Source of the DNA: a virus
DNA: 53,224 nucleotides
Strand: one strand, 5' to 3'
Virus record (IMG/VR): IMGVR_UViG_3300009180_005974
Span: 1 to 53,224 of that record
Shown: positions 1,610 to 41,641 of the stretch, piece after piece
How positions within the stretch are numbered: the stretch's first letter is position 1
Layout: each line of letters starts with the position of its first letter
Made by a program: the position numbers and the translations under genes
The notes under the pieces: generated by a model
The model's database searches: none
Seen by the model: the letters and a program-made list of their open reading frames with translations, nothing else
What the model was told of the DNA's origin: nothing

Positions 1610-1620
1610 GTGGAATCTCG

Positions 1621-2136: not shown

Positions 2137-2143
2137 GGATAAG

Positions 2144-14777: not shown

Positions 14778-14790
14778 GTTGACCCTCCAA

Positions 14791-14820
14791 CATATTTATC
14801 ACTAGCAGATCGGATCTGCT
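14791..14820. promoter_or_regulatory. Divergent control region with a perfect palindrome
   Basis: Between two divergent genes lies a perfect inverted repeat, AGCAGATC-G-GATCTGCT (14804-14820). On the minus strand the sequence GATAAATATG (reading 14800 to 14791) resembles a T4-type late promoter and leads to the membrane-protein gene. On the plus strand the palindrome is followed by AAGGGAGG and the next start. A repressor operator is plausible; a bidirectional hairpin is the alternative. Confidence 0.45.
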
Positions 14821-14837
14821 AAGGGAGGATGTTTACA

Positions 14838-15023
14838 ATGGCTCTAAAACCAGAAGAATTGCTTGCCATCGCACCAGACGCTGCCAAGCTCGTTGAGCTC
14901 CTTAACAAGGCGCTGAAGAAAGATGACGACGGAAAGGTCAGAATCACACCTGAAGAGGGTAAGGCTATCAAGGCGCTCATCACGAGGATGGCGCTCCAGC
15001 TTGCCAAGGATGCGATAGACTAA
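14838..15023 (+). CDS. Small helical unknown protein
   Basis: A 61-residue protein. ATG 14838 is chosen over ATG 14829 because the GGAGG at 14824-14828 is then correctly spaced. Sequence is amphipathic helical (ELLAIAPDAAKLVELLNKAL, EEGKAIKALITRMALQLAK). Followed immediately by a terminator, so it is a one-gene unit. Function unknown. Confidence 0.6.
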   Translation: MALKPEELLAIAPDAAKLVELLNKALKKDDDGKVRITPEEGKAIKALITRMALQLAKDAID

Positions 15024-15037
15024 TCTTCCCGCGATGT

Positions 15038-15079
15038 AAAGCCTCCGGTCTCCAGTTAGATTCTGGTACCGGAGGCTTT
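15038..15079 (+). terminator. Rho-independent terminator-like hairpin
   Basis: AAAGCCTCCGGT (15038-15049) pairs perfectly with ACCGGAGGCTTT (15068-15079) around an 18-nt loop, followed by CTTGT. The T-run is short. The right arm contains GGAGG and is followed by TTG, so a role in hiding a ribosome binding site cannot be excluded. Confidence 0.7.
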
Positions 15080-15104
15080 CTTGTCTCAGCCTCCAGGAGG
15101 GAAG

Positions 15105-15443
15105 ATGCGTTACTATCCAAAGAGTGCTGTTGGTTTTGAGATCGATTCCAGCGTCGCTGAGAAGCTGGGGCTCCTCGAGCAGTGGGAGGAGTGGGATGGC
15201 GAGCAGTATGACAGCGAATTCGGGTACGAGTTCGAGGAGAAGTACGGTGTGACGCCTTGGCGAGTCGTCAAGTTCTATGAGCAGAAAGGTGGTGAGATCA
15301 GCGGCCTGTCTGGTTTTGCCGATGGCTCCACCTATGTCCTGTTCGATGACGAGGAGAGTGGCGAGGCTTGGGACGCGCTCGTGAACTTTCTCGGCAACAA
15401 TAACATCGAGCTCGAAGACGGAACTTGGAGCGAGCTGGGCTGA
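15105..15443 (+). CDS. Acidic unknown protein
   Basis: A 112-residue protein starting at ATG 15105 after a strong AGGAGG; an in-frame TTG at 15081 is less likely. Very acidic and aromatic (LLEQWEEWDGEQYDSEFGYE, YVLFDDEESGEAWDALVNFL). No family recognised. The charge pattern could suit a nucleic-acid mimic, but that is speculation. Confidence 0.6.
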   Translation: MRYYPKSAVGFEIDSSVAEKLGLLEQWEEWDGEQYDSEFGYEFEEKYGVTPWRVVKFYEQKGGEISGLSGFADGSTYVLFDDEESGEAWDALVNFLGNNNIELEDGTWSELG

Positions 15444-15495
15444 ATCTCTATAAGATTCCCACGCAGCGATTATAGTGTCAAATCAAGGAGGACAA

Positions 15496-15906
15496 TTGTC
15501 AAGAGTCTGGAGCGACCCTTCTATCCTGAAGGCAATTCCCAATCCCTCGAGCAAGGGCTACGAGGTCAAGATCAAGTCACCCGAGGTAACGTTTCTCGGT
15601 GTCAAGGACCAGCCAGATTTCGCAGACCTCTTCATCACCATCTATCCGAATTCCAAGGTGGTGGAGCTCAAGTCTCTGAAGTACTATCTCCACCAGTTCC
15701 GCGAGAAGATCATCTCCTATGAGCGGCTGATCAATGTCGTCTACGACGATCTCATGGCAGCGTACGAGCCAGACCGGCTCCGGGTCGTGATGGTGTTCAA
15801 TCCTCGAGGTGGAATCAGCTCGAAGCTCACAATCGACTCTGACTGGAAGACCCGCGGCGGAGAAGAGAAGTACAAGGACTGGGTCGGTCTTGGGGAGGAG
15901 TGGTAA
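15496..15906 (+). CDS. QueF-fold protein lacking the catalytic cysteine
   Basis: A 136-residue protein with TTG start after AAGGAGG; GTG 15475 is upstream but overlaps a TATAGT (15471-15476) that may be a promoter. It matches the unimodular QueF family along its length: [37 protein letters not shown]. QueF reduces preQ0 to preQ1. In the family the motif before QPDF is CPxTG with the thioimide-forming Cys; here it is FLGVKD, with no Cys. The Asp of QPDF and the Glu of VELKS are kept. It is therefore unlikely to be a normal nitrile reductase; substrate binding or a different reaction is possible. No other deazaguanine gene lies in the window. It ends 2 bp before metK. Confidence 0.7.
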
Positions 15907-15907
15907 C

Positions 15908-17074
15908 ATGCCGAAGAACTACCTGTTTACATCTGAGTCCGTATCAGAGGGGCACCCAGATAAGATCTGTGACCAGATCTCTGACGCTGTGTTGGATTCT
16001 TACCTCCAGCAGTATCCTAACTCGAGGGTGGCCTGCGAGACCCTCGTGAAGACCGGCTTGGTCGTTGTAGCTGGAGAGATCACCGTGCCGTCTGAAGTCA
16101 AGGTCGACATCGCAAAGGTGGTGAGGAAGACGATCAACGACATCGGATTCAACCACTCTGACAAGGGATTCGACGGCAACACCTGCGCCGTCATGGTCGC
16201 CCTCGAGGAGCAGTCTCCCGATATTGCGCAGGGCGTCGATGAGGGCTCTGGCCTGTTCTCTGAGATGGGTGCTGGCGACCAGGGCATGATGTTCGGCTAC
16301 GCAGTCCTTGAGACGCCAGAGCTCATGCCGGCGTCGATCCAGTGGAGCCACGACCTGATGCGGAACCTCTCGAAGCTCCGCAAGACCGACAGCGACTGGT
16401 CCTGGGTCCGTCCGGACAGCAAGGCCCAGGTGACGGTGGAGTACCGAGACTCGAGGATCTCACGCATCGATACCGTCGTCCTGTCTACCCAGCACGAGCC
16501 CCGTGCCCACGGCGAGATCTATGAGCAGGTCGTCTCTGGTCTCATCAAGCGGTACCTGCCCTCTGACATGATCGACAACAAGACGAAGTTCTATGTCAAC
16601 CCCACGGGCAAGTTTGAGATCGGCGGACCGATGGGAGACTCGGGTCTCACGGGTCGCAAGATCATCGTCGACACCTACGGTGGCCACGGTGCCCACGGCG
16701 GTGGCGCCTTCTCGGGCAAGGATCCCAGCAAGGTTGACCGTTCGGCGGCTTACATGGGTCGGTACATCGCAAAGAACCTCGTCGCTTCCGGAGCCTGCTC
16801 TCGAGCGCTGGTCCAGCTCTCCTATGCGATTGGCGTCGCAGAACCGGTGAGCGTGATGGTCGATACTTTCGGCACCAACAGGGTAAGCGAGGATCAGATC
16901 ATTCGCTGCGTCAAGGACGTCTTCCCGCTGAAGCCGAAGGGAATCATTGAGCGCCTGGACCTGCGCAAGCCGGGATACCAGCGCACCGCCGCGTATGGCC
17001 ACTTTGGGCGAGGCGAATTCACTTGGGAGAAGTTGGACATGGTTACAACAATCAAGCGTTACCTGGAGATCTAA
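15908..17074 (+). CDS. metK: S-adenosylmethionine synthetase
   Basis: A 388-residue, full-length enzyme (E. coli MetK is 384). It makes SAM from methionine and ATP. Signatures include [20 protein letters not shown] at the N-terminus, [12 protein letters not shown] near residue 120, and [20 protein letters not shown] near 258, with the ATP and metal ligands intact. The start follows the upstream TAA by 2 bp; its own stop overlaps the ATG of ahcY. The two form a SAM synthesis and recycling pair. The GC-rich third codon positions match the neighbouring metabolic genes. Confidence 0.95.
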
Positions 17075-18567
17075 TGAAATTCATGAATACTGGCCTCGAG
17101 CTTTTCTCGGGCATGCAGAGCAGAGTCAAGGACAATTCTGACAAGACGACGACGTGGGGTCGGAAGGAGATTGAGCTCGCCCAGAAGGAGATGCCCGGGC
17201 TCATGTCCGTGCGCAATCGCTTCAAGGATGAGAAGCCCCTGCAGGGCGCCCGGATCATGGGTTCACTCCACATGACTATCCAGACGGCTGTGCTGATCGA
17301 GACCCTTAAAGACCTCGGCGCAGATGTGCAGTGGGTGAGCTGTAACATCTTCTCGACGCAGGACCACGCGGCATCAGCTATTGCTTCCACCGGCACCCGG
17401 GTCTTTGCATGGGCTGGTGAGACCCTCGAGGAGTACTGGTGGTGCACCCTTCAGGCGCTCGCCTGGCCTGATGGTTCTGGTCCCACGCTCCTCCTCGATG
17501 ATGGCGGTGATGCGACCCTTCTAGTTCATCTCGGCTACCAGCACGAGAAGAATGATACGCTGCCAGACCTAGCTACTGCATCTTCGGAGGAGGAAGCCGT
17601 CATCTTCCAGCTCATCCATGATGTCCGCAGGGAGAAGGGTAACAACTTCTGGACTCCTCTGGCGGCGAACATCAAGGGTGTCTCTGAAGAGACTACTACT
17701 GGCGTGCACCGGCTCTACGAGATGCGCGATGCCGGCACCCTCTTGTTCCCGGCGATCAACGTCAACGATTCGGTGACCAAGTCGAAGTTCGACAACCTCT
17801 ATGGTTGCCGCCACTCTCTCGTCGATGCCATCAATCGTGCTACGGACGTGCTGGTCTCAGGCAAGCGGGTCCTGGTCTGTGGCTACGGTGACGTGGGTAA
17901 GGGTTCAGTAGATAGCCTCCGAGGCCAGTATGCCAGAGTTGCAGTCACTGAGATTGACCCGATCTGTGCGCTCCAGGCATGTATGATGGGCCTCGAGGTC
18001 ACTACGGTCGAGGATGCGCTCCCGCACACTGACATCTTTGTGACCGCAACTGGGAACAAGAACATCATTAACGCCGAGCACATGTCCCAGATGAAGGACG
18101 GAGCCATCGTCTGTAACATTGGCCACTTCGACAATGAGATCGACATGGCAGGCCTCGAGCGCATGCGCCGTGATCGGCTGGTTACTAAGACCGAAGTGAA
18201 GCCAGGCGTCCACGAGTGGGAGTTTGACGACACGGGTCGAAAGATCCTGATCCTCGCCGAGGGTCGACTCGTGAATCTTGGATGCGCGACCGGTCACCCG
18301 AGCCTTGTGATGAGCAACAGTTTCACGAATCAGGTGCTCGCCCAGATCGACCTCCACAAGTTCTCTGAGCTCTACGGTCATAATCGCATCAAGCTTCCTG
18401 ATCTCAATGTGAGCGTGGTCACGCTTCCGAAGCACCTCGATGAGATGGTTGCCCGACTTCACCTCGATAAGTTCGGTGCAAAGCTCACGAAGCTTACCGA
18501 GAGTCAGGCAAGCTACATTGGAGTCGACGTCGAAGGTCCCTACAAGTCGAATCAGTACCGGTACTGA
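17074..18567 (+). CDS. ahcY: S-adenosylhomocysteine hydrolase
   Basis: A 497-residue enzyme of normal length that splits S-adenosylhomocysteine to adenosine and homocysteine using bound NAD. ATG 17074 overlaps the metK stop (TAATG) with CCTGGAG upstream. Signatures: [38 protein letters not shown], the NAD loop [11 protein letters not shown], and the C-terminus PYKSNQYRY with the conserved Lys and Tyr. It relieves product inhibition of methyltransferases and lets homocysteine return toward methionine. Its pairing with metK implies heavy methyl-group use during infection. Confidence 0.95.
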
Positions 18568-25389: not shown

Positions 25390-26538
25390 ATGGTGTTATT
25401 CTTACTCACGGTCGCATGCATGGACAATACGATCACTTCCATCAAGGATCCACCCACTGATGGCGCACCGCGTATTCAGGTCGACCCCAGCCCTGTCGAC
25501 TTTGGGATCGTCCCAGCCGGTGAGAGCTCGGCGCAGATCATCACCATGTCATCGCTCGGAGACGCAAACCTCAACGTGACCGCAATGCAGATCGGCAACG
25601 GACGTGAGACATTCACTCTCCTCGAGCCCATTGTCGGTTCTTTCGAACCTGATTCCTTCGCTGAGCTCACGATCACATACACCTCCGATGGGAGCGAGAC
25701 AACCGGTGACCTTCAGATTCTTTCTAACGATCCTGCTAGTCCTAACCTTACTGTGCCTCTGCTAGCCGGTGCGGAGGTCATAGTCGACACCGGAGACACT
25801 GGGGACACCGCGCCTCCACTCTCCCAGCCAGTTGCGGTATGCTCGGTCGATCCCACGTCCGTCCTCGCCATCCATGAGTCAGCGGACTGGATTGGCAGCG
25901 CCTCGTACGATGACGGATCGATCGTCTCATACGACTGGACTCTCATCTCTGAGCCGGCTGGTGCCACCTCCACAATGCCTGGTGGCACCGCAAATCGTCG
26001 GGGTTTCACTCCGGACGTAGCAGGCGAGTACGTCGGCCAGCTGGTGGTCACTGATAACGACGGTCTCGTCTCTGAGCCCTGCCTCGCGACCCTGGAGGCG
26101 ACAGCCGGTGACGGGCTCTGGGTGGAGATGTTCTGGACATACTCCGGCGATGACATGGACCTCCACCTCCTCGATGATGGCGGCGTCCTGACAACTGATT
26201 CTGACTGTTACTATGCGAATTGCACTTGGGGCGGACTCAACTGGGGGGCTGGTGGTCCAACGGATGATCCCATCCTCGACCTCGATGACATCCCGGGAAC
26301 TGGTCCGGAGAATATCAATATCGACTCTCCCGCACGTGGGACGTACACTGTCTATGTCCATGACTACCCTGGTTCCGTCTACTCGGGACGCAATGATGTC
26401 ACTGTGAACGTCTACCTCGGTGGTGTCATGGTGTGGACTGATACGCGTAACGTCAACTCCGAAGGCTGCTATGAGCCATTTGTCGAAGTTGACGTTCCGG
26501 GCGGCTCCACTACGAGCCTCTCTGGTGCCTGCCGCTAG
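25390..26538 (+). CDS. Myxococcota-style secreted lipoprotein
   Basis: A 382-residue protein. A short hydrophobic start, MVLFLLTVACMDN, contains a lipobox-like TVAC, though without the usual basic N-terminus; CGGAGG precedes it. A domain of the choice-of-anchor/ASH type follows (VDPSPVDFGIVPAGESSAQI and LQILSNDPASPNLTVPL), then a DTGDTGDT linker, a PKD-like domain (GSASYDDGSIVSYDWTLIS) and a C-terminal domain with DMDLHLLDDGG, CYYANCTWGG and GTGPENINIDSP. That last domain and the DTGD linker are typical, in my experience, of Myxococcota surface lipoproteins. It is probably exposed on the host outer membrane. It stands at the end of a plus-strand unit, convergent with the next gene. Confidence 0.75.
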   Translation: MVLFLLTVACMDNTITSIKDPPTDGAPRIQVDPSPVDFGIVPAGESSAQIITMSSLGDANLNVTAMQIGNGRETFTLLEPIVGSFEPDSFAELTITYTSDGSETTGDLQILSNDPASPNLTVPLLAGAEVIVDTGDTGDTAPPLSQPVAVCSVDPTSVLAIHESADWIGSASYDDGSIVSYDWTLISEPAGATSTMPGGTANRRGFTPDVAGEYVGQLVVTDNDGLVSEPCLATLEATAGDGLWVEMFWTYSGDDMDLHLLDDGGVLTTDSDCYYANCTWGGLNWGAGGPTDDPILDLDDIPGTGPENINIDSPARGTYTVYVHDYPGSVYSGRNDVTVNVYLGGVMVWTDTRNVNSEGCYEPFVEVDVPGGSTTSLSGACR

Positions 26539-31444: not shown

Positions 31445-31828
31445 ATGTTCAGCATCGTGAATCGCAGCCCCTATGCCAGCTTCGACACCTTCCTCGACTC
31501 GTTCCTCGATGAGCGCAGTGACCGGTACGCTCGTAAGACGACTGCCCTGATGCCGCGTGCTCAGATCAATGAGACCGACAAGGGCTACTCCATCGCCGTG
31601 GAGATGCCGGGCCTCAGCCGCTCCGACATTGAGATCTCCACCGAGCACGACAGCCTCACCGTCACCGGTAACCGTGAGGTGAACGGCACCAAGTCCACAT
31701 ACTCCCGGTCCTGGACTCTCGGTGAGAACGTCGCGCAGGATGGAATCTCGGCGCGGTATGACGCCGGCATCCTCTATGTCGAGGTCCCCGTCCAGAAGAG
31801 CGTGAAGCGGATCATCTCCGTCGAGTAG
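31445..31828 (+). CDS. Small heat-shock protein (Hsp20/alpha-crystallin)
   Basis: A 127-residue protein from ATG 31445 with a strong AAAGGAGAG. The alpha-crystallin domain is clear: RAQINETDKGYSIAVEMPGL, SDIEISTEHDSLTVTGNR, SRSWTLGENVAQDGISARY and GILYVEVPVQKS. It binds unfolding proteins without ATP. Similar genes occur in cyanophages and other large phages. It stands alone before a strong terminator, so it is expressed as its own unit. It is one of two chaperone-type genes here, with the Hsp60-like protein at 40331. Confidence 0.9.
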   Translation: MFSIVNRSPYASFDTFLDSFLDERSDRYARKTTALMPRAQINETDKGYSIAVEMPGLSRSDIEISTEHDSLTVTGNREVNGTKSTYSRSWTLGENVAQDGISARYDAGILYVEVPVQKSVKRIISVE

Positions 31829-32307: not shown

Positions 32308-32619
32308 ATGCACAGAATGAAATTAGTCGATCTGCTTTTTGAGACTGGATTCGGAACTTCGATGACCCAGGTCCCTCCCGGTGTCGGTAGAAATGCCCAC
32401 AGCGTCCACACTGACCCGTACACCTGGGAAGACTACGAAGACATGGAGTACGAGATCTCCACAGATGAGAAGGGCAAGACGTTTGCCAGCATCACCGACA
32501 CCACCAAGGGCAGAAAGCAGAGCTACACCCGCACGTTTGCTGATGAAGAGCAAGCGAAGATGTGGATCCGGACCGAGTTCGAGAAGATGAAACGGGATAA
32601 GATGGCAAAAGAGCGTTGA
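32308..32619 (+). CDS. Leader-bearing small protein
   Basis: A 103-residue protein. The leader MHRMKLVDLLFETGF is nearly the same as that of the 642-residue protein at 6824 and has L-F-E12 before Thr. The mature part is small and charged (WEDYEDMEYEISTDEKGKTF, YTRTFADEEQAKMWIRTEFE). A TACAGTTATAG stretch just upstream recalls the GATANTTA motif. Confidence 0.6.
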   Translation: MHRMKLVDLLFETGFGTSMTQVPPGVGRNAHSVHTDPYTWEDYEDMEYEISTDEKGKTFASITDTTKGRKQSYTRTFADEEQAKMWIRTEFEKMKRDKMAKER

Positions 32620-32643
32620 AAAGCGATTTACGCGTGGTATAAT
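32616..32643 (+). promoter_or_regulatory. Sigma70-like promoter
   Basis: TTGAAA (32616-32621) and a perfect TATAAT (32638-32643), 16-bp spacer, 21 bp before the helicase start. Same hexamers and spacing as 4698-4725. The -35 box overlaps the stop codon of the upstream gene. Confidence 0.8.
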
Positions 32644-32663
32644 CGGGTATTGGAGTGCAAACT

Positions 32664-34286
32664 GTGATTCCCGAGTACGAGATCAACTTCCCATTCTCTC
32701 AGATCCGTGACGCCCAGAAGGATGCAATCGAGTTCGCGCTCAAGGCATTCTTCGAGGAAGACAAGAAGTTCGTGGTGATCGAGGCGGGTACCGGCGTCGG
32801 CAAGTCGGCGATCGGTCTCGCGCTTTCCCGGACCGTGTCCGGTCACAGTGCCCCGGCAGACTTCAAGCCGGGCGGCTACTTCATCACGACCCAGAAGATC
32901 CTGCAGGACCAGTACCTGCGCGACTTTGGGGCACCGAAAGGCACGATGCTCTCGCTGAAGTCTTCAGCAAACTTCCAGTGCACTTACCACAAGGCGAACA
33001 CCTGCGCGGACAGCCTCAGGGCACTCAAGGTCGCAGACAAGTCCTCTGCGTTCTTCAAGAACTGTGCCCACCACTGTGTCTACCGGCAGGCCAAGAACGC
33101 GTTCATCAATGGCGAGGAGGGCGTGACGAACTTCAGCTACTTCCTGGCTGAGACGGTGTACGCTGGCCGCCTCCAGCCCCGGCGGCTCCTGGTGGTCGAC
33201 GAGGCGCACAATGCTGACATGGAGCTCAGCAAGTTCATCGAGATCGACATCAGCGAGCGGTTTGCATCCACTGCCCTCAAGCTTGAGATGCCCGAGATCA
33301 AGACCCAGCTCCAGGCGATCAAGTGGCTGCGCGAGGAGTACGAGCCCAAGCTTGATACCCATGTGAAGCACATGGAAAAGATGATGGAGAAGTACGTCGG
33401 CTTCAAGGACAAACTCAAGGAGTTCACTACAATCGCAAAGCGGTATGAGCTCCTCGACAAGCACATCTGCAAGGTCCACCGATTCCTGAAGATCTACGAC
33501 GACGAGAACTGGATCTTCAACCTGATTCCTGCCGAGGGGCAGTCCGGTCGCAAGCTCGAGTTCAAGCCGGTTGATGTCTCCCACTATGCGGACGAGTTCC
33601 TGTTCCGTCACGGTCACAAGGTCCTGCTGATGTCGGCGACGATTCTCGACAAGGAGGGCTTCTGCGGTCTCCTGGGAATCAAGTCCGAGGACTGCGCCTT
33701 CATCTCTATCCCGTCACCGTTCCCGGTCGAGAACAAGCCGATCCTGGTGAGCCCCGTCGGCAGCATGTCAGCGGACAAGATCGAGCAGACCCTGCCTCGT
33801 TTGGCCACCGCCGTTACCGAGATTCTGCGCAATCACCCGAATGAGAAGGGCATCATCCACTGCCACTCCTACAAGATCGCGAACTATCTCATGAAGAACG
33901 TGAAGTCCAACCGGCTCCTTACCCATGGCAGCGCAGACCGGGATGAGACGCTGTCCAAGCACATCACGGGGACCCAGCCAACGGTTCTGCTGTCACCCTC
34001 GATGACGGAAGGTGTGGACCTCAAGGACGATTCCAGCCGCTTCCAGATCCTCTGCAAGGTCCCATACCCCTACCTCGGTGACAAGATCGTGAAGAAGCGC
34101 ATGCACCGCTGGCCCTGGTGGTACCCGCTCCAGACCGCAAAGACCATCGTCCAGTCTGTGGGCCGATCTGTCCGAAGTGAGACTGACCACGCAGTGACCT
34201 ATATTCTCGATGGCGACTGGGATAGATTTTACTCGAAGAACTCCAAGTTCTTTCCAGAAGATTTCAGGGAGTCTATCGTAAAATGA
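32664..34286 (+). CDS. DinG/XPD-type superfamily 2 helicase with putative Fe-S cluster
   Basis: A 540-residue protein. GTG 32664 is preferred over GTG 32655 because GGAG is then 8 nt away. Walker A is EAGTGVGKSAIGLA (about 40-53), the DEAH box VVDEAHNADME near 178, and C-terminal motifs include LLMSATILDK, PSMTEGVDLKDDSSRF and QSVGRSVRSETDH. Four Cys between motifs Ia and II (about 106, 114, 134, 138; spacing 7, 19 and 3) fit the 4Fe-4S cluster of XPD/DinG helicases. The family unwinds DNA 5' to 3' in repair and R-loop removal. It follows a strong sigma70-like promoter and heads an overlapping unit with the sugar/nucleotide genes. Confidence 0.85.
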   Translation: MIPEYEINFPFSQIRDAQKDAIEFALKAFFEEDKKFVVIEAGTGVGKSAIGLALSRTVSGHSAPADFKPGGYFITTQKILQDQYLRDFGAPKGTMLSLKSSANFQCTYHKANTCADSLRALKVADKSSAFFKNCAHHCVYRQAKNAFINGEEGVTNFSYFLAETVYAGRLQPRRLLVVDEAHNADMELSKFIEIDISERFASTALKLEMPEIKTQLQAIKWLREEYEPKLDTHVKHMEKMMEKYVGFKDKLKEFTTIAKRYELLDKHICKVHRFLKIYDDENWIFNLIPAEGQSGRKLEFKPVDVSHYADEFLFRHGHKVLLMSATILDKEGFCGLLGIKSEDCAFISIPSPFPVENKPILVSPVGSMSADKIEQTLPRLATAVTEILRNHPNEKGIIHCHSYKIANYLMKNVKSNRLLTHGSADRDETLSKHITGTQPTVLLSPSMTEGVDLKDDSSRFQILCKVPYPYLGDKIVKKRMHRWPWWYPLQTAKTIVQSVGRSVRSETDHAVTYILDGDWDRFYSKNSKFFPEDFRESIVK

Positions 34287-34762
34287 TCTGCAAGAATGTC
34301 GAGCACCTGCGAGATGTGCTCAGCGAATTCCACCCAAACCAGAAGGTCTGGGCTACGAGCGGCGGATTTGATCCCATGCACGTCGGACACCTTCGTTGCC
34401 TTCTTGACACTGCCAGGCTGGCAAGCAAAGAGGGCGGCGTAACGGTCGTGATTGTGAACGGAGACGGATTTCTCCTCAGGAAGAAGGGTTATGCCTTCAT
34501 GCCCGATGAAGAGCGCATGGAGATAATCGACGGTGTCCGAGGAGTCGACTATGTTGTACCGTGGGATGATGGATCACAGACCGTGGTTGGCGCAATTGAT
34601 GCTCTAAAGCCGAACTATTTCACAAAGGGTGGAGACCGAGACACGGCGCAGAACGTTCCAGAGTTTGAGCTGTGCTCAAAGATTGGGTGCGATGTGGTAT
34701 TTGGAATTGGCGGCGGCAAGATCCAGTCGTCATCAGATCTAGTCTCAAAGGTGAAGAAATGA
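34283..34762 (+). CDS. Cytidylyltransferase-like nucleotidyltransferase
   Basis: A 159-residue protein with the family signature SGGFDPMHVGHLRCL (His33 and His36 in the HxGH motif) and a C-terminal TKGGDRDTAQNVPE region. It is closest in plan to the RfaE C-terminal domain and glycerol-3-phosphate cytidylyltransferases, which join a nucleotide to a phosphorylated sugar or polyol. Overlaps the helicase by 4 bp and the cupin by 4 bp. The substrate may be a surface sugar or a nucleotide cofactor such as NAD precursors; not decidable here. Confidence 0.75.
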   Translation: MICKNVEHLRDVLSEFHPNQKVWATSGGFDPMHVGHLRCLLDTARLASKEGGVTVVIVNGDGFLLRKKGYAFMPDEERMEIIDGVRGVDYVVPWDDGSQTVVGAIDALKPNYFTKGGDRDTAQNVPEFELCSKIGCDVVFGIGGGKIQSSSDLVSKVKK

Positions 34763-35100
34763 GAATCGTAAATAAGCCATGGGGACACGAAGAGATTTGG
34801 GCTGAGAACCCCAAGTACCTTGGAAAGATTCTGGTGATCAAGAATGGCCACCGTCTGAGCCGTCAGTACCACAATATCAAGGACGAGACAATCAGGGTTC
34901 TCAGTGGAACTCTCACAATCGAAGTCGGAGCCAAGGGCGAGAACAAGTGGAAATACACTGAGGGAAGCACGTTTCACGTGACTCCAAAGACGGTCCACAG
35001 GTTCTGTGCTTACGATGGTGATGTCCAGCTGATTGAAGTCTCGACCCCTGAAATCAACGATGTAGTGAGGCTTGAAGATGACTACTCGCGGGAGCAATAA
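34759..35100 (+). CDS. Cupin, mannose-6-phosphate isomerase type II-like
   Basis: A 113-residue single cupin. KPWGHEEIWAEN at the start, KNGHRLSRQYHNIKDETIRV with metal-binding His and Glu, SGTLTIEVG and FHVTPKTVHRF are the motifs of the isomerase/C-terminal domain of ManC-type proteins. With the adjacent nucleotidyltransferase it suggests sugar-nucleotide metabolism, perhaps for glycosylating DNA, virion or host surface. Could also be an isolated sugar-binding cupin. Confidence 0.75.
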   Translation: MRIVNKPWGHEEIWAENPKYLGKILVIKNGHRLSRQYHNIKDETIRVLSGTLTIEVGAKGENKWKYTEGSTFHVTPKTVHRFCAYDGDVQLIEVSTPEINDVVRLEDDYSREQ

Positions 35101-35530
35101 GAGGGAGCGGCGTCCTGGAGCAGGATTTGTAGTCCTGCGAAAGTTTGATGACGGCTGGAAAGTGCTGGGGCTCAGGTTCTACAGCACTTATGATCTACCC
35201 AAGGGTGGCGTGGACTCCAACAGCGAGCCGCTTCTTAGCACGGCAAAGAGAGAGTGCTTTGAGGAGGCTGACATCCTAATCGAAGACGGCGAGATGCCAT
35301 TCGGAGATCTCAGCCTCAAAGTCAAGCACCTGACTCTCTATATTGCGGTGACCAGCAAGGACGCAAAGATCAAGAAGAACGAGAAGACCGGAATCCTCGA
35401 GCATCACGGACTCAAGTGGCTTGATCTTGAGGCCGACCACGATAAGTTTCACCCCTACCTTCAGCCAGCAGTTGTTTGGGCCCGTGACATACTGAAGAGC
35501 AACGAGAGTTTATACTCGCTCAGAACCTGA
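35078..35530 (+). CDS. Nudix hydrolase
   Basis: A 150-residue protein from ATG 35078 (TTG 35072 is also possible). The Nudix box is GGVDSNSEPLLSTAKRECFE followed by EADI, matching Gx5Ex7REUxEExGU except that the last Gly is Asp. Nudix enzymes hydrolyse nucleoside diphosphates linked to another group, including NAD, sugar nucleotides, diadenosine polyphosphates and mRNA caps. It is the last gene of the helicase unit and overlaps the cupin by 23 bp. Confidence 0.8.
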   Translation: MTTRGSNKRERRPGAGFVVLRKFDDGWKVLGLRFYSTYDLPKGGVDSNSEPLLSTAKRECFEEADILIEDGEMPFGDLSLKVKHLTLYIAVTSKDAKIKKNEKTGILEHHGLKWLDLEADHDKFHPYLQPAVVWARDILKSNESLYSLRT

Positions 35531-35536
35531 TACTTA
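35529..35536 (+). promoter_or_regulatory. GATACTTA motif close to the YeaH start
   Basis: GATACTTA ends only 5 bp before ATG 35542. If it works as a -10 element the YeaH-like mRNA would be nearly leaderless; no Shine-Dalgarno sequence is visible. A TTTATACT near 35510 is another candidate promoter. Confidence 0.25.
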
Positions 35537-35541
35537 TTGGT

Positions 35542-36711
35542 ATGTCCGTTTTCAAAGAGCACAAGACCTCCGCTGACAGGTCGGCTTCTGACCGCCGACG
35601 TCACAAAGAGAAGATCGATAGGGCAATCAAGGACGGAATCCACGACATAGTCGCGGATGAGTCGATCATAGGTCAGGACGGTAAGAAGAAGATCAAGATT
35701 CCCGTGAAGGGCATCAAGGAGTATCGATTCGTCTATGGCGATAATGGAAATCGCCAGGTCGGTTCTGCTCCAGGAAAGGACGTATCCAGGGGACAGACGG
35801 TCGGCAGTGCCGGAAAGCCCCAGAAGGGAAAGCCAGGAAAGGCCGGCGAGGATGCTGGTGAGGAAGTGTACGAGGTCGAGATCACGCTCGAAGAGCTCGC
35901 ACACTACCTTTTCGATAGCCTAGAGCTTCCCGAGCTGGAGAAGAAGTCCCTAAAGCAGATCATCACCGAGAAGCCAAAGCGCCACGGCTACAGGAACGAG
36001 GGAATCAGGCCCAGGCTTGATAAGAAGGAGACGGTGAAGCGCATGCTCCGCCGGCGAAACGTGGCAAAGTCGAGCGGCTCTTATGATCCAGAGGAGCAGG
36101 AGAGCTTCTCGTTCAATGATGACGACCTGCGCTACAAGCACATCAAGCAGGTCTCACAGCCCTCTTCGAACGCCGTGATCTTCTTCATCATGGACGTGTC
36201 AGGCTCGATGACCGATGAGAAGAAGTATCTCGCACGGAGCTTCTTCTTCCTGCTATACCACTTTGTACGCTCACGGTATGAGAACACCGAGATCGTATTC
36301 ATTGCCCATGATACCGCCGCCTACGAGGTCACGGAAGACCAGTTCTTCAAGCGCGGATCCTCTGGCGGCACCACGGTCTCGCCGGCAATCGAGATGGTGA
36401 GCCAGATCATTGAGAAGCGGTACCACCAGTCCGCCTGGAACATCTATGCGTTCCAGTGTAGCGACGGTGACAACTTCTCCAACGACAATCCAAAGCTCCT
36501 TGAGCGACTCAGAGTGCTAAAGCCACTGTGCCAGCTGTACGGCTACTGTGAGATTGAGCCTGAGAAGGACAAGATGCGCTGGGCTCACAACGACTCGATG
36601 CTCGGAAACTTGCTCCAGCCGCTCAAGGACAGCAACTTCAAGATCGCCAACATCAACACGCCGAAAGACATCTGGCCAGCATTCAAGTCATTCTTTGGAG
36701 GGAAGCTTTAA
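35542..36711 (+). CDS. yeaH: YeaH/YhbH (DUF444) von Willebrand A-type protein
   Basis: A 389-residue protein of family-typical length (B. subtilis YhbH and E. coli YeaH are about 390-430). It has the basic N-terminus with SASDRRRHKEKIDRAI, a Gly/Lys linker, SYDPEEQESFSFNDDDLRY, the metal-site motif MDVSGSM (Asp218, Ser220, Ser222), the Thr loop GSSGGTTVSPA and the end PKDIWPAFKSFF. In bacteria it is encoded with the kinase PrkA/YeaG and SpoVR/YcgB and is induced in starvation. The same three genes follow each other here. Its stop overlaps the SpoVR start by 1 bp. Confidence 0.9.
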   Translation: MSVFKEHKTSADRSASDRRRHKEKIDRAIKDGIHDIVADESIIGQDGKKKIKIPVKGIKEYRFVYGDNGNRQVGSAPGKDVSRGQTVGSAGKPQKGKPGKAGEDAGEEVYEVEITLEELAHYLFDSLELPELEKKSLKQIITEKPKRHGYRNEGIRPRLDKKETVKRMLRRRNVAKSSGSYDPEEQESFSFNDDDLRYKHIKQVSQPSSNAVIFFIMDVSGSMTDEKKYLARSFFFLLYHFVRSRYENTEIVFIAHDTAAYEVTEDQFFKRGSSGGTTVSPAIEMVSQIIEKRYHQSAWNIYAFQCSDGDNFSNDNPKLLERLRVLKPLCQLYGYCEIEPEKDKMRWAHNDSMLGNLLQPLKDSNFKIANINTPKDIWPAFKSFFGGKL

Positions 36712-38021
36712 TGTCAGATTGGACCTTCAAGGAACTGGAAGAATACGATAAGAGGATCATTGAGATCGCAGAGAGCCACAATCTCGACTGGTTTCCAATT
36801 GTGTACGAGACCTGCGACTACTACGAGATGATGGGCCACATGTCATACCACGGCATGCCGAGCCACTACCCGCACTGGTCTTTCGGAAAGTCTTTCGAGC
36901 GCACTCAGCAGATGTATAACATTGGTGCTGAGGGTCTTCCATACGAGCTCATCATCAACTCGAATCCCAGCATTGCTTACCTGATGCGGGAGAATCCTCT
37001 GTACCTGCAGGTGCTCATCATGGCGCACTGTGTTGGCCACAGTGACTTCTTCAAGAACAACAGGATGTTCTCCAGCACCCAGCCGGACATCATTGTGCAC
37101 CGCTTTAGGAATGCCAGAAAGCGCATCCAGGGCTACATCGAGGACCCAAGCATTGGAATCATCAAGGTGGAGGAGCTACTGGATTCTGCGCACGCAATCC
37201 AGTTCCAGACCTACCGCTTCCCGAAGGAGTACATTCCTCACTCTGTGAAGAAGAAGGAGATGATACTACGCTTCAAGGAGCAGAAGGAACGCGGACTCAA
37301 GGTCTCAATGGACAGCCTCGAGAAGGTTCCTCTGGAGAAGGAGTACGATGTTCTGGGATTCCTGGGCGAGCACGCAAACATGGAAGACTGGGAGAGGGAC
37401 GTTCTCGACATTGTGAGGACTGAGTCACAGTACTTCATGCCGCAGATCCGCACCAAGATTATGAACGAGGGCTGGGCCAGCTACTGGCACTACCGGATCC
37501 TCCACGAGCTCAATCTCCCGCCTGAACTTCACCTTCCATTCATCAAGTCGCACAACCAGGTCATCAGACCCGCGATCGGATCAATCAATCCTTACCACCT
37601 CGGCTTCCACATGTTTCACGATATAGAGAAGCGTATGGGACTAGAGGAATGCTTCATCGCAAGAGAGGCGTGCAACGATGAGTCCTTCATCAGAAACTAC
37701 CTCACCCAAGAGATGTGCGAGGAGCTGAACCTTTTCTCCTACGGCAGGAAGAAGGAGAACTACGTTGTCGAGGATGTCTCTGATGAGATGGGCTGGAAAG
37801 AGGTGAAGCATAACCTAATCAGGCAAGTTGGCGCAAATACGATACCAACGATCTATGTTGAATCGATCGACAAGGGAAACGTTCTTGTGCTTCACCACGA
37901 GCACGATGGCAGAGATCTAGAGATCAATTACGCAGAAAAAGTCATAGGCCACGTATCAAAAATCTGGAAGAGCGAAGTCAAGCTCCTAACAACTTTGGAA
38001 GGCGAACCCTTCGAAATCTGA
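36711..38021 (+). CDS. spoVR: SpoVR/YcgB family protein
   Basis: A 436-residue protein, slightly shorter than E. coli YcgB (about 510) and near B. subtilis SpoVR (468). Family signatures: LDWFPIVYETCDYYEMMGHM, MPSHYPHWSFGKSFERTQ, INSNPSIAYLMREN, IMAHCVGHSDFFKNN, NEGWASYWHYRI and NPYHLGFHMFHDIEKR. The HC-GH segment conserves the likely metal-binding His residues. Its biochemical role is not known; in B. subtilis it affects spore cortex formation. Placed between YeaH and PrkA in one unit, with 9 bp to the PrkA start. Confidence 0.9.
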   Translation: MSDWTFKELEEYDKRIIEIAESHNLDWFPIVYETCDYYEMMGHMSYHGMPSHYPHWSFGKSFERTQQMYNIGAEGLPYELIINSNPSIAYLMRENPLYLQVLIMAHCVGHSDFFKNNRMFSSTQPDIIVHRFRNARKRIQGYIEDPSIGIIKVEELLDSAHAIQFQTYRFPKEYIPHSVKKKEMILRFKEQKERGLKVSMDSLEKVPLEKEYDVLGFLGEHANMEDWERDVLDIVRTESQYFMPQIRTKIMNEGWASYWHYRILHELNLPPELHLPFIKSHNQVIRPAIGSINPYHLGFHMFHDIEKRMGLEECFIAREACNDESFIRNYLTQEMCEELNLFSYGRKKENYVVEDVSDEMGWKEVKHNLIRQVGANTIPTIYVESIDKGNVLVLHHEHDGRDLEINYAEKVIGHVSKIWKSEVKLLTTLEGEPFEI

Positions 38022-38030
38022 GAGGTGTCA

Positions 38031-39971
38031 ATGTCGGATAAGAGCAAGAACAAGTTTCTCGACCTCATCAAGAGCCAGAGGGACAACAAGTCGGACACCA
38101 AGTTCGAGGGTAACTTTCTTGAGTACCTCGACCTGGTCCGTGATAACCCGGGCGTTGTGAAGCACGCCCACAAGCGACTCAACGATACCATCGAGGGTTT
38201 CGGAGTCTCTATCATACCGGATGAGGACCCGCGCAAGCGTAAGGTCTTTGACGGTGACAACCTGAAGCTTTACGAGTACTTCAAGGACGAGTTCTTTGGT
38301 CATGAGCGAGTCATTGCAAAGATCATGCGCTTCCTGAAGTCCGCATCCCTCAAGGGTGAGGAGAGCCGCCAGGTCCTGCTCCTCATGGGTCCTGTCGGTT
38401 CCGGCAAGTCTGCCCTTGCAGAACACATAAAGAAGGCGGTGGAGCACGCTGAGCCGTTCTACCACCTCAAGGACGACCCCCAGCGCGGAGAGCCTCTCCA
38501 GCTCATCCCCCGCTCCCTTCGTCCAGAGTTCGAAGAGCTGCTTGGCGTGAAGATCGAGGGTGACCTCAGTCCCGTTGCCCGCCACGTCCTCCTCGAGAAG
38601 TACAAGGGCGAGTACGAGAAGTTCCAGGTCGTACAGTCTACGTTCTCACAGCGCGCTCGTCGTGGTGTTGCAGTGGTCCCGCCCATGGATGCAAACTCGC
38701 AGGACGTATCGGTCCTTATCGGCTCTGAGGACATCTCAAAGCTTGACAAGTTCTCTGAGGACGATCCCCGCATCCTGTCCCTGAACGGCGCGTTCAACGT
38801 CGGAAACCGTGGCATCGTGGAGCTTGTCGAAGTCTTCAAGAACGAGATCGAGTTCCTCCACACTATCATCACTGCCACCCAGGAGAAGCGAGTCCCGTCC
38901 CCTGGCAAGCACGACATGATCTACTTCGATGGTGTGATCCTTGCGCACTGTAACGAGGCCGAGTGGAACCGGTTCCGCGCGCAGCACACCAACGAGGCGA
39001 TCCTCGACCGAATCGTCAAGATCAACGTCCCCTATGTCCTCGAGCTGGCGCAGGAGATGAAGATCTACGAGAAGATCCTCAAGAAGTCTGACTTCAAGGC
39101 GCACATTGCCCCTCACACGATCAAGGTCGCTTCGATGTTCTCCGTGATGAGCCGCCTGAAGCCGACCCAGAAGTGCGACATCATGACAAAGATGAAGATC
39201 TACAACGGTGAGGAAGTGATCGAGAAGGGCAGGGTCAAGAAGATCGACATCAAGGACCTCCGTGAGGAGTCCCGTGATGAGGGTATGAATGGCATCTCGA
39301 CCCGATTCATCATGAAGGCAATTGACAACGCGCTCTCTGATTCCGAAAAGAGCTTCATCACGCCCATCTCGGTGATGTCCGCAGTCACCAAGCAGGTGCA
39401 GGAGCAGGTAATCGACGAAGAGTTCCGCACCCGGTGCCTTGAGCTCATCCAGAAGGTCGTCCGCGAGGAGTACCTGAAGATCCTCGAGACCGAGATCGCA
39501 AAGGCGTTTGTGACGGCCTACGAGGAGCAAGCACAGTCCCTGTTTGACAACTACCTTGACAATGCCGAGGCCCACACCACTCGCCAGAAGATCAAGGATC
39601 GAGTCACAAGAGAGGAGCGTGAGCCTGACGAGAAGTTCATGCGAGCAATCGAGGAGCAGATCGGCATTGTGGCTTCCTCTCGAGACGGGTTCAGGTCAGA
39701 CGTCACCGCCTATATGTTTGCCAAGATGCGTCGCAACGAGAAGGTGAGCTACACCTCCTATGAGCCGCTCAAGGAGGCTATCGAGGGCTACCTAATCGCC
39801 TCCGTCAAGGACATGGCGCGCATCGTTACCAAGTCGAAGACCAGGGACGACGAGCAGCAGAAGAAGTACTCCAACATGATCACCACGATGGTTGACGAGT
39901 ACGGATACACCCCGGAGTCTGCGGAAGAGGTCCTTACCTTTGCCAGCAACAACCTGTGGCGCGATAGCTGA
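38031..39971 (+). CDS. prkA: PrkA/YeaG serine protein kinase (AAA-like)
   Basis: A 646-residue, full-length protein (E. coli YeaG 644, B. subtilis PrkA 631). ATG 38031 is preferred with GAGAGG upstream; GTG 38025 is possible. Motifs: FFGHERVIAKIMRFLKSA, Walker A LLMGPVGSGKSALAEHI, LQLIPRSLRPEFEELLGVKI, NRGIVELVEVFKNEIEFL, and AHCNEAEWNRFRAQHTNEA with Arg finger-like DRIVKINVPY. The C-terminal helical kinase region is complete. PrkA is reported as a kinase and, in B. subtilis, as an ATP-dependent protease; in E. coli it alters the response to nitrogen starvation. The last gene of the module, followed by a strong terminator. Confidence 0.92.
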   Translation: MSDKSKNKFLDLIKSQRDNKSDTKFEGNFLEYLDLVRDNPGVVKHAHKRLNDTIEGFGVSIIPDEDPRKRKVFDGDNLKLYEYFKDEFFGHERVIAKIMRFLKSASLKGEESRQVLLLMGPVGSGKSALAEHIKKAVEHAEPFYHLKDDPQRGEPLQLIPRSLRPEFEELLGVKIEGDLSPVARHVLLEKYKGEYEKFQVVQSTFSQRARRGVAVVPPMDANSQDVSVLIGSEDISKLDKFSEDDPRILSLNGAFNVGNRGIVELVEVFKNEIEFLHTIITATQEKRVPSPGKHDMIYFDGVILAHCNEAEWNRFRAQHTNEAILDRIVKINVPYVLELAQEMKIYEKILKKSDFKAHIAPHTIKVASMFSVMSRLKPTQKCDIMTKMKIYNGEEVIEKGRVKKIDIKDLREESRDEGMNGISTRFIMKAIDNALSDSEKSFITPISVMSAVTKQVQEQVIDEEFRTRCLELIQKVVREEYLKILETEIAKAFVTAYEEQAQSLFDNYLDNAEAHTTRQKIKDRVTREEREPDEKFMRAIEEQIGIVASSRDGFRSDVTAYMFAKMRRNEKVSYTSYEPLKEAIEGYLIASVKDMARIVTKSKTRDDEQQKKYSNMITTMVDEYGYTPESAEEVLTFASNNLWRDS

Positions 39972-39986
39972 TATTTAGCCCTGGAC

Positions 39987-40017
39987 TGGCCCGCTTCGGC
40001 GGGCCATTTCAGTTTTT
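39987..40017 (+). terminator. Rho-independent terminator
   Basis: TGGCCCGC-TTCG-GCGGGCCA, a perfect 8-bp stem with a UUCG tetraloop (39987-40006), followed by TTTCAGTTTTT. It closes the YeaH-SpoVR-PrkA unit. A GATATTTA octamer at 39970-39977 sits between the prkA stop and the hairpin. Confidence 0.92.
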
Positions 40018-40064: not shown

Positions 40065-40331
40065 ATGAACATTACAATTGGGGTACCTGAGATCATGGTT
40101 GCGGGCGGTATTGCGCTGCTTGGGATTGGTCAGGTCATTCCTGGGTGGTCCCTCATCACTGTGGGATCTGCGGGATCTTTCCTCAGGCTTGCTTACATCT
40201 CTCAGGAGAAGAAGAATCAGGCAGAGATCCTCAGCAAGACAGTGGAATCATTGACTTCTAAACTTGCGGAGCGTGGATCTGCGATAAATCTCTCGAGCTT
40301 TGTCAAAAACAAGAACGAGAGCGTCAACTAA
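40065..40331 (+). CDS. Small membrane protein
   Basis: An 88-residue protein from ATG 40065 (GTG 40059 possible) after GAAGAGGAG. Two hydrophobic segments (IMVAGGIALLGIGQVIPG and WSLITVGSAGSFLRLAY) form a hairpin, followed by a cytoplasmic-type coiled tail (KKNQAEILSKTVESLTSKL). It may anchor or partner the Hsp60-like protein whose gene starts at its stop. Family unknown. Confidence 0.55.
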   Translation: MNITIGVPEIMVAGGIALLGIGQVIPGWSLITVGSAGSFLRLAYISQEKKNQAEILSKTVESLTSKLAERGSAINLSSFVKNKNESVN

Positions 40332-41641
40332 TGGAAAATAGCCTTCCCATCTCAGGAGACCAGCACCACGACGAGATCCGTTCATGGGTTGAGTCTCTTG
40401 AGGCTTCGGTGAAGAAGCTTCGTGATGGCCATCTCACAGTCTCATTTGGAAATCGCGCTGAGAGGCTCGAGTACCTTGATTGCCTTCGTGTCGTCCACGA
40501 ACAGCGTGCGAATTCAATGTCAGCAAGGTCTTGTAGGGCTGCGCTCATTGAGGCGATTGTCTCAGCCGAGAGGAAGATTCCAGGATCCAGCTATTTTGTG
40601 GTCTGCGGATTCGTGTCATCTTATCTCGGATCTGGTAAAAAGGACCTGCATGAGATCAGCCACACTTCGAGGTTCATGGACATAGATGAGCTCAATGCCG
40701 CGTTATCTCATGTCTCATCATGCCCCATCACCACCGCGGTGGTTAGACAAGCCCTTGCCGCCGCGGGAAGTTCTGGCACAATTCGCCTGAAGAGATCTGA
40801 TGAGTTCGACATCAGAATCAAAGTCCACGAGGGCTACAGGTTTGGAGCTGGGGTCGATCCAAATTTCTGCCAGGGCTCTGGCCAGAAGACTTTTGATTTT
40901 CTCGACTGTGACGTTGCTGCAATCGATGGAGTAGTCACCACCGTCTCAGAGATCAACCACATACTCGAATCATACTCACAGACCAAACGCAGATTGTTTC
41001 TGTTTGCCCGGGGATTCGAACCAGAAGTAATCCACACACTTGCAGTGAACTACCTCAGAGGGTCTCTGAGGGTCATTCCGCACATTGTGCCCACGAGCTT
41101 GGATACGATAAACTTGATCCGTGACCTTTGCGTATGCATTGGTCATTCGGCTGTCTCGCCGCTCAAGGGCGACCTGATCTCGAGCATAAAGCTAGAAGAA
41201 ATTCCAAGCGTCAAGAGGATCGTGTCTAGCGTAAGAGAGTGCACTATCGAAAATCCTGAACGTTCCCACAGCGTCTGGGAACACGCCAGGTGGCTTCTGG
41301 ATCAGGCTGCAAGCGAGCAAGTCGAAGACAAGCGTAAGCTCTTTGAGGATCGAGCGGCCAACCTAAACCCTGCCGTTGTTGAGATCTGGCTGGGTCGCAG
41401 CGTTGGTGAGATGTCTGGACTTATCGAAGACCGCATACGTTCTGCGCTTGGGATCGTAAACGGGTTCTGTTTGACGGGTAGAATCTCAGCAGGAGACGTT
41501 GAGGGAATTTCCACCTCTGATCTGCTACCTAAAATTAGGTCCTTGCCAGCTGGATCTCTGGTTAGTGGAATGAAGATTGGCACTGAGCTGGCAGATTCCA
41601 TGAGAAAGATAGGAGCTGTGATCGCAAATGATACCAGATAA
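40331..41641 (+). CDS. Divergent Hsp60/GroEL-like protein without the usual ATP motif
   Basis: A 436-residue protein, about 110 residues shorter than GroEL. The apical domain aligns by eye: KVHEGYRFGAGVDPNFCQ (compare VVEGMQFDRGYLSPYF), FLDCDVAAIDGVVTTVSEIN, RLFLFARGFEPEVIHTLAVN and YLRGSLRVIPHIVP. Near the end, ANLNPAVVEIWLGRSVGEMS and LIEDRIRSALG parallel the GroEL return to the equatorial domain, keeping the Glu-Asp at the position of catalytic Asp398. The N-terminal equatorial part lacks the GDGTTT nucleotide-binding loop. It may form modified rings, join host GroEL, or use only the apical substrate-binding surface. Confirmation by structure prediction is needed. Confidence 0.6.
   Translation: MENSLPISGDQHHDEIRSWVESLEASVKKLRDGHLTVSFGNRAERLEYLDCLRVVHEQRANSMSARSCRAALIEAIVSAERKIPGSSYFVVCGFVSSYLGSGKKDLHEISHTSRFMDIDELNAALSHVSSCPITTAVVRQALAAAGSSGTIRLKRSDEFDIRIKVHEGYRFGAGVDPNFCQGSGQKTFDFLDCDVAAIDGVVTTVSEINHILESYSQTKRRLFLFARGFEPEVIHTLAVNYLRGSLRVIPHIVPTSLDTINLIRDLCVCIGHSAVSPLKGDLISSIKLEEIPSVKRIVSSVRECTIENPERSHSVWEHARWLLDQAASEQVEDKRKLFEDRAANLNPAVVEIWLGRSVGEMSGLIEDRIRSALGIVNGFCLTGRISAGDVEGISTSDLLPKIRSLPAGSLVSGMKIGTELADSMRKIGAVIANDTR

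Follow-up and report, generated by a model that had tools for sequence, protein, structure and literature searches.

The AAA protein PrkA (YeaG), the DUF444 protein YhbH (YeaH), which has a von Willebrand A (vWA) domain, and SpoVR (YcgB) make up a stress module that is widespread in bacteria. In nitrogen-starved Escherichia coli the adaptive roles of yeaG and yeaH are linked, and complementation fails when one or the other YeaG domain is mutated (reported in PMC4664914); in Bacillus anthracis PrkA is required for sporulation and osmotic tolerance (reported in PMC13001217). Phage members of these families have also been recorded. The Ralstonia jumbo phage RsoM2USA encodes SpoVR (ORF28) and PrkA (ORF30) in the same direction, separated by a single open reading frame (ORF), the best matches quoted being a Vibrio SpoVR and an Alcanivorax PrkA (PMC8504454, in its account of these ORFs); that the middle ORF is a DUF444 gene is our guess. 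In viruses of oxygen-minimum zones, according to the relevant passage of PMC8940887, spoVR is the most abundant gene of the sporulation type, and help with host sporulation has been proposed for it. Here we analyse the three genes as they occur side by side in a 53,224-bp virus record of IMG/VR (IMGVR_UViG_3300009180_005974; ‘the window’ below means this whole stretch), and show that the trio is a fixed cassette passed down in a sizeable lineage of uncultured T4-like tailed phages with large genomes, whose members probably run their own copy of a bacterial growth-arrest programme in the infected cell.

As a first-pass annotation of the window had stated, the window holds three adjacent full-length genes for DUF444, SpoVR and PrkA proteins (Table 1), all three with Pfam matches. 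The DUF444 protein is matched by PF04285 in two stretches (E 2e-114) and, over residues 3–385 of its 389, by the NCBIfam profile TIGR02877 spore_yhbH (3.1e-118, under the equivalog cut-off). For SpoVR the family profile PF04293 (E 7e-124) spans the whole length and SpoVR_C (PF24755) adds a match at 2.8e-07. PrkA is matched by both AAA_PrkA (PF08298, 6.6e-136, 453.5 bits) and the PrkA C-terminal domain (PF06798, 5.3e-82, 275.8 bits), the Pfam cut-off being 25 bits for either profile; it scores below the equivalog cut-off of NCBIfam PRK15455 (398.1 versus 576) and is thus not that equivalog, and its solved relative is 9xip (E 4.6e-93). The spacing of 1–9 bp given in the first-pass annotation needs correction: DUF444 and SpoVR share one base (36711), SpoVR and PrkA are three bases apart, and 11 bases lie between DUF444 and the NUDIX gene ahead of it.

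The window is DNA of a T4-like tailed phage, in good agreement with its initial description as a phage-like genome. Its entire length aligns in three pieces (99.976, 99.980 and 99.994% identity) to the 132,044-bp virus contig G001, and it is because the window lies wholly within this contig, which encodes the capsid protein Gp23 (Pfam 4.7e-80) and a T4-type terminase (6.7e-14), that we assign it to a phage; a check for a section of host chromosome found nothing of the kind. A profile search of the window itself for these two protein types gave no Gp23 or Terminase_6N match. Among 11 large contigs (123–361 kb) selected for holding the trio, Terminase_6N was found in all 11 (10 above the curated cut-off) and Gp23 in 10, with contig G009 being the odd one out for both. 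The nearest named relatives of the capsid and terminase proteins, from Flavobacterium, Rhodothermus and Microcystis phages, are at 32–45% identity and therefore too distant to name a host. One of the contigs carries a tandem pair of Gp23-like capsid genes (G006:C1:139350-142938; open frames of 640 and 643 aa).

We then considered how the three genes are kept together. Scans of IMG/VR yielded 44 loci with PrkA and 123 relatives of SpoVR, of which the best 80 loci were kept, two of them already among the 44; together these make 122 loci, or 114 distinct contigs once 8 that had been fetched twice are removed. All three genes are present on 109 of the 114; the remaining five (L038, L039, L044, L089 and L104) are truncated by a contig end, the first gene seen starting no more than three bases from the end of the stretch. 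The window and all 109 uncut contigs have the PrkA-YhbH-SpoVR stress module as three genes in one unit, and in 109/109 contigs the genes are adjacent, on one strand and in the order DUF444-SpoVR-PrkA. Since the contigs were chosen for PrkA or SpoVR, these counts demonstrate linkage of the genes and give no measure of how many phages carry them. In a capsid-selected sample, drawn from 80 loci kept of at least 600 matches, PrkA was found in 4 of 12 contigs of 59–257 kb, three of the four being already known carriers. In 74 of the 102 unique cassettes the DUF444-SpoVR junction is at -1, -4 or -8, an overlap that suggests coupled translation. Median ratios of non-synonymous to synonymous substitution (dN/dS, Nei-Gojobori method, NG86) for the three genes are 0.045 (18 usable pairs), 0.043 (25) and 0.031 (30) with a maximum of 0.13, the pairs not being independent as some contigs occur twice; the window compared with contig L003 gives 0.045, 0.043 and 0.031. 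The trio is kept as a unit under strong purifying selection (dN/dS 0.03–0.05), which supports the first-pass idea that the cassette is being kept.

To trace the origin of the cassette we scanned cellular genome contigs with a PrkA alignment; the best 80 of 590 relatives were kept, and the statements on cellular relatives that follow refer to these. The top relative (PrkA 75%) lies on a 305,838-bp contig, NHDW01000006.1 (L161), binned as Methylococcaceae TMED69. Because it has Gp23 and the trio in phage order, we take it to be a phage contig in a metagenome-assembled genome (MAG), evidently a jumbo phage binned as a bacterium. The next PrkA relatives, at 54–62% identity, are the clostridial-type loci L162–L179, L182 and L203, 14 of the 20 titled Bacillota and the other six coming from one deltaproteobacterial, one Bdellovibrionales and one Sneathiellales MAG, two bacteria without a name and one labelled Lutibacter; the remaining cellular rows are at 35–39%. 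No Gp23 match was found in the genomes of eight clostridial-type loci, and in the two loci with checked neighbours (L166 and L174) these are ordinary chromosomal genes (hemL, hemA and topoisomerase III). With the nearest cellular copies mainly clostridial, a Myxococcota donor is not supported. The clostridial-type operon (e.g. L162, L166, L174) comprises the same three families on one strand, but its order is PrkA-DUF444-SpoVR as far as the contigs extend, its SpoVR has HVYGH (18/18 rows) where the phages have HC[VIC]GH, and its PrkA carries Thr or Ser at the position of the phage Cys 309.

In quick maximum-likelihood trees with support from the Shimodaira-Hasegawa-like approximate likelihood ratio test (SH-aLRT) only, the IMG/VR phage rows and L161 form a single clade for PrkA (100), SpoVR (100) and DUF444 (98). 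The phage PrkA clade was recovered under a mixture model (100) in a 62-row tree that contained the window and 18 further rows drawn at random from 75 thinned phage rows. Clostridial-type rows adjoin the phage clade in the PrkA and SpoVR trees. Given these clades and the cellular gene order, the simplest account would be that the whole set was captured once from a mainly clostridial cellular subfamily, was then rearranged and has since passed through long vertical descent.

The suggestion that the system is undescribed in phages is not supported, as RsoM2USA, the Thermus phages phiYS40, phiLo, MN1 and Lalka8 and PHROGs v4 families matching all three trio proteins are already on record, SpoVR and a serine kinase being given as such in the phiYS40 annotation. 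Searches of 50,697 phage records at E 1e-5 gave 16 with PrkA, 17 with DUF444 and 5 with SpoVR; the last number is low owing to the divergence of Thermus SpoVR, which a profile does detect in the four Thermus phages examined. These four have the trio in the same order as the window, phiYS40 with one gene inserted ahead of PrkA, but their PrkA is only 29–33% identical to that of the window and sits on a separate branch. The single PrkA origin that the shared order might suggest is rejected by the approximately unbiased (AU) test, applied to PrkA (62 rows, p 7.1e-07; the branches are long), and since four Bacillota MAGs (L186, L198, L202 and L237) are also ordered DUF444-SpoVR-PrkA, order alone proves little. 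The megaphages LR745206, LR756504, LR756511 and LR756502 likewise have members of all three families, though in the order PrkA-DUF444-SpoVR in three of them and with SpoVR elsewhere in LR756502; three of the four group with YeaG-type PrkA, and a single PrkA origin with the phages of the window's lineage is rejected (AU test, p 2.2e-45). The Thermus phages and most megaphages thus look like separate captures.

What is new here is the conserved T4-like lineage of the set and its repeated capture, the phage members being already known. Within the limited literature and terms searched, we found no publication that treats the three genes as a phage module, and none on the conservation of the set across a T4-like lineage or on its repeated capture. 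A large phage lineage with an intact copy of a module that is widespread in bacteria, and seemingly separate uptakes by other phages, show that the module is useful to the virus during infection, and the phage versions are tractable, including those in phages that infect laboratory strains of Thermus thermophilus. Note that the Enterobacter phage record LAU1 (L150, MN688132.1) has YeaG and YeaH at its first bases (1-3308), which looks like host flank left on a prophage sequence.

The motifs quoted in the first-pass annotation were all found in the sequence, and catalytic-site breakage was not. In DUF444 the residues of the metal-ion-dependent adhesion site (MIDAS; D218-x-S220-x-S222, T277 and D308) are intact and invariant in 36/36 aligned rows. 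The Walker A Lys of PrkA is kept in 89/89 phage and 79/79 other rows. Compared with E. coli, which has the same three families as YeaG-YeaH and YcgB, the PrkA of the window is about 32% identical to YeaG, with YeaG K116 and K426 corresponding to Lys K128 and K431. The K426 counterpart is Lys in 89/89 phage rows and Asn in 59 of the 79 others, and the R232 counterpart is Ser in all 89 phage rows and in 66 of the 79. K426 and R232 are the residues mutated in E. coli as the kinase Lys and the AAA Arg, respectively; their poor conservation in other PrkA rows casts doubt on these two assignments. Position 309 of PrkA is Cys in 89/89 phage rows and Thr (56), Ser (22) or Cys (1) among the 79 others, the lone Cys being that of the phage contig L161.

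In SpoVR, residues H106, H110, E253 and H260 are invariant across a 72-row alignment thinned from 108 references. Over distinct rows, the HxxxH motif reads HC[VIC]GH in 98/98 T4-like phages and also in L161, while 23 other cellular and plasmid rows have HVxxH (19), HACYGH (1, Cupriavidus) or sequences unmatched by the pattern (3). As the Cupriavidus protein, a SpoVR of the YcgB kind, has a Cys in its longer HACYGH motif, and Ala or Val stands at the position of Cys 107 in the megaphages and Thermus phages, the notion of a Cys exclusive to phages was dropped; compared with the closest relatives, the Cys is fixed within the T4-like lineage. No row has Glu at the position of the catalytic Glu of HExxH (0/72), and we therefore do not call SpoVR a peptidase.

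The AlphaFold2 model of the full length, built on the 72 aligned rows, has a predicted local distance difference test score (pLDDT) of 93.6 and a predicted template modelling score (pTM) of 0.91; for the first 343 residues alone the values are 90.5 and 0.88. In a second-look structural aligner, zincin-type structures came top for the full model and for the domain alone; with the domain they fill ranks 1–38, the best being 3o0y (Z 11.7, root-mean-square deviation 3.7 over 179 residues), with the caveat that helical models can reach middling Z by chance and that Foldseek gave no match. The matches come from what we take to be peptidase families M1, M2, M3, M13, M32, M61 and IrrE. Because so many peptidase families agree, and the HxxxH and Glu are conserved, we argue for a zincin-like fold without the catalytic Glu as the predicted structure of SpoVR, in which these residues may form a metal site. 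The top match 3o0y, titled a putative lipoprotein, is related by sequence to a DUF885 protein (E 1.8e-16), a family whose members presumably carry an EGWA motif; DUF885 had been picked for this motif, and the kinship with 3o0y was found only afterwards. DUF885 proteins resemble SpoVR in the predicted fold of residues 1–332 and in an EGWA-type motif, but differ in that identity is about 13% and SpoVR lacks the HExxH Glu. In the megaphage LR756504 (L151, ORF 14522-16435), about 125 residues inserted in frame interrupt SpoVR within the conserved NEG-(C)ATF motif; the first residue of this insert is Cys, the last two are HN, and Cys follows. The insert is mini-intein-like, with a weak match to Pfam Intein_splicing (E 0.0092, under the cut-off).

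The best overall explanation, to which we give a probability of roughly 40%, is that a module captured whole serves as an AAA machine with its adaptor that imposes a tolerant, growth-arrested state on the host. The literature on the cellular module leads us to infer that such a state would be set by a machine for ATP-driven remodelling and not by a classical kinase or protease. PrkA would be the ATP-driven motor, and DUF444 could dock a partner through its MIDAS. That partner would be SpoVR with its predicted zincin fold, which has kept the His and Glu of the putative metal site, has lost the general base and may bind rather than cut. During infection the phage module would bring about the tolerant arrest for which the host's own copy acts in stationary phase; a large genome needs a long cycle, and over its course a slow or starved cell could thus remain intact and productive. 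In MoxR-type machines, too, an AAA ATPase motor stands beside a MIDAS-bearing vWA partner, as in the trio. A difference is that the PrkA of B. anthracis has been assigned to AAA clade III (in the classification given in PMC13001217). Chaperone-type neighbours count in favour of a growth-arrest module: the commonest neighbour of the trio is a GroEL-like ORF (69 of 109 complete trio contigs), the window has a small heat-shock protein of the HSP20 family (31445-31828, E 3e-15), and a ClpP-type cluster occurs at 14 of 95 loci. RsoM2USA, which carries SpoVR and PrkA, has a latent period of 270 min (reported in PMC8504454). The predicted pseudo-peptidase fold of SpoVR makes the mechanism testable.

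Several observations weigh against this explanation. In the DUF444 tree it is YeaH-type and not clostridial-type rows that adjoin the phages (support 92). Foldseek returned nothing significant for SpoVR in the PDB (no match with E under 0.2), so that the fold rests on the second-look aligner. Profile comparison of SpoVR with one DUF885 protein gave a weak match at NEGWA (E 0.0062, probability 6%; two control proteins gave E 0.49 and 0.74), and with M32 peptidases it was negative (E 0.21, not at the motif). Three SpoVR proteins of YeaG-type sets, from Cupriavidus and two megaphages, have HxxxxH, one residue longer, so a shared metal site is not certain. On the functional side, the activity assays described in PMC13001217 found negligible kinase or protease activity of B. 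anthracis PrkA in vitro, and in the growth tests given in PMC3188799 the Rhizobium etli prkA mutant had no growth defect on 384 nitrogen sources. The long latency of RsoM2USA, a single anecdote, is ascribed by its authors to a possible lack of RNA polymerase (in their comment in PMC8504454). Finally, 17 of 95 unique loci have Gp23 no more than 6 kb upstream of the trio, an arrangement also in keeping with a late or virion role.

An account that we hold to be rather unlikely is that the trio strengthens or remodels the envelope against early lysis or superinfection, with SpoVR as a cell-wall effector. This would agree with the resemblance of the SpoVR domain to zincin peptidases in the structural comparison, with the part of spoVR in B. 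subtilis and of a relative in Myxococcus in spore cortex formation (as cited in PMC12456014), and with the sensitivity of ycgB mutants, given as unpublished data in a passage on Typhimurium (PMC2375023); however, none of the 72 SpoVR rows has Glu at the HExxH position, and B. subtilis SpoVR crosslinks to RNA in vivo (reported in PMC12456014), which points to the cytoplasm. Improbable, in our view, is a counter-defence role in which the module quiets toxin-antitoxin or abortive-infection responses during infection: E. coli yeaG is needed to repress mqsRA and dinJ-yafQ under nitrogen starvation (reported in PMC4664914), but that effect is transcriptional and in E. coli. We consider it very improbable that the AAA/vWA pair aids capsid maturation or DNA packaging, since cellular homologues function without capsids and Gp23 is about 77 kb from the trio in G001, the contig that contains the window, although Gp23 is close upstream at the loci just mentioned, the trio of Lalka8 lies between minor head protein and terminase genes and that of phiYS40 is close to a terminase. 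A useless passenger, a contaminant or a piece of host chromosome, the last being rejected, is negligibly probable, for although such errors happen (the Methylococcaceae-binned contig with trio and Gp23 is one), the entire window is part of a contig that encodes Gp23 and terminase, and all three genes are in order in 109/109 uncut contigs with dN/dS of 0.03–0.05.

Beyond the growth-arrest machine as set out above lies a bolder version of it, which we offer as speculative and unlikely as a whole: that at least three unrelated phage groups independently took over the whole module, and that in the T4-like giants it has become a fixed, coadapted machine whose Cys-bearing SpoVR pseudo-peptidase would be loaded by PrkA and DUF444 onto RNA or the cell wall, locking a survivable arrest. 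If true, viruses would have a general way of programming host dormancy from the inside, different from both toxins and phage sporulation sigma factors.

Table 1. Features of the trio and its surroundings (positions are those of the window).
Feature	Position	Strand	Basis
Promoter-like TTGAAA-16-TATAAT, TG ahead of second hexamer	32616..32643	+	11/12 consensus bases
DNA helicase, first gene of closely packed upstream block	32655..34286	+	phrog_2488 8.5e-117; related ORF in 42/122 loci
Cytidylyltransferase-like protein	34283..34762	+	Pfam PF01467 1.2e-09; related ORF in 24/122 loci
Cupin, mannose-6-phosphate isomerase C-terminal type	34672..35100	+	Pfam PF01050 1.2e-09; related ORF in 19/122 loci
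NUDIX protein	35072..35530	+	Pfam PF00293 4.5e-05; related ORF in 34/122 loci
DUF444 / YhbH-YeaH family protein with vWA domain, 389 aa	35542..36711	+	Pfam PF04285
DUF444 MIDAS motif DVSGSM, residues 218-223	36193..36210	+	Sequence; D218, S220, G221, S222, M223 invariant in alignment
SpoVR / YcgB family protein, 436 aa; zincin-like domain (predicted) at about residues 1-340 and C-terminal domain	36711..38021	+	Pfam, AlphaFold2
SpoVR HxxxH motif H106-C-V-G-H110, Cys where HExxH peptidases have Glu	37026..37040	+	Row comparison
SpoVR E253 of NEGWA motif, proposed third metal ligand (putative role)	37467..37469	+	Invariant in 72/72 rows
PrkA / YeaG family AAA protein with PrkA C-terminal domain, 648 aa, GTG start	38025..39971	+	Pfam
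PrkA Walker A GPVGSGKS, residues 122-129	38388..38411	+	K128 aligns with YeaG K116
Intrinsic-terminator-like hairpin, UUCG loop, after trio	39987..40006	+	8 pairs, 7 G-C, then TTTCAGTTTT
GroEL-like protein, 436 aa, seemingly without N-terminal equatorial part	40331..41641	+	9c0d, chain residues 126-450, E 1e-13

The trio is preceded by a closely packed block (Table 1; the neighbour counts per 122 loci include 8 contigs twice), and the promoter-like site ahead of the helicase gene may mark the beginning of a unit that spans 32655 to 39971; the region has 6 promoter-like sites against 5.1 expected, so that the site is not evidence alone. As for the ‘own UUCG terminator’ credited to the unit, the hairpin does exist, but terminator-like sites in the scanned region are no commoner than in shuffles (6 versus 7.9 expected), and the hairpin is a consensus match only. 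The T4 late-promoter motif TATAAATA was found within 150 bases upstream in 1 of 102 unique cassettes; the most enriched upstream words, TACTTATA, CTTATAAT and TATAATCA, occur in 9–10 of the 102 each, which may merely reflect near relatives.

Downstream of the GroEL-like gene are an RNaseH-like gene and a PIN-PhoH gene. A search of the window for Cpn60_TCP1 gave no match at E 0.001; full-length Cpn60 genes are present in 8 of 12 records searched. Clusters within 6 kb of the trio (neighbourhoods such as L108, L007 and L043), named after a sampled member, include a trypsin-like one (27 of 95 loci), the ClpP-like one and a weakly tubulin/FtsZ-like one (12 loci). Elsewhere in the window, genes for S-adenosylmethionine synthetase (15809-17074) and S-adenosylhomocysteine hydrolase (17023-18567) lie side by side; this pair has no relative in the 122 trio loci, whose flanks reach up to about 10 kb, the pair itself being about 17 kb from the trio. 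The window also encodes a 1260-aa protein with an OmpA C-terminal domain and a weak thrombospondin-3 match (9466-13248), and a protein with PKD and HYDIN-type Ig matches (25390-26538).

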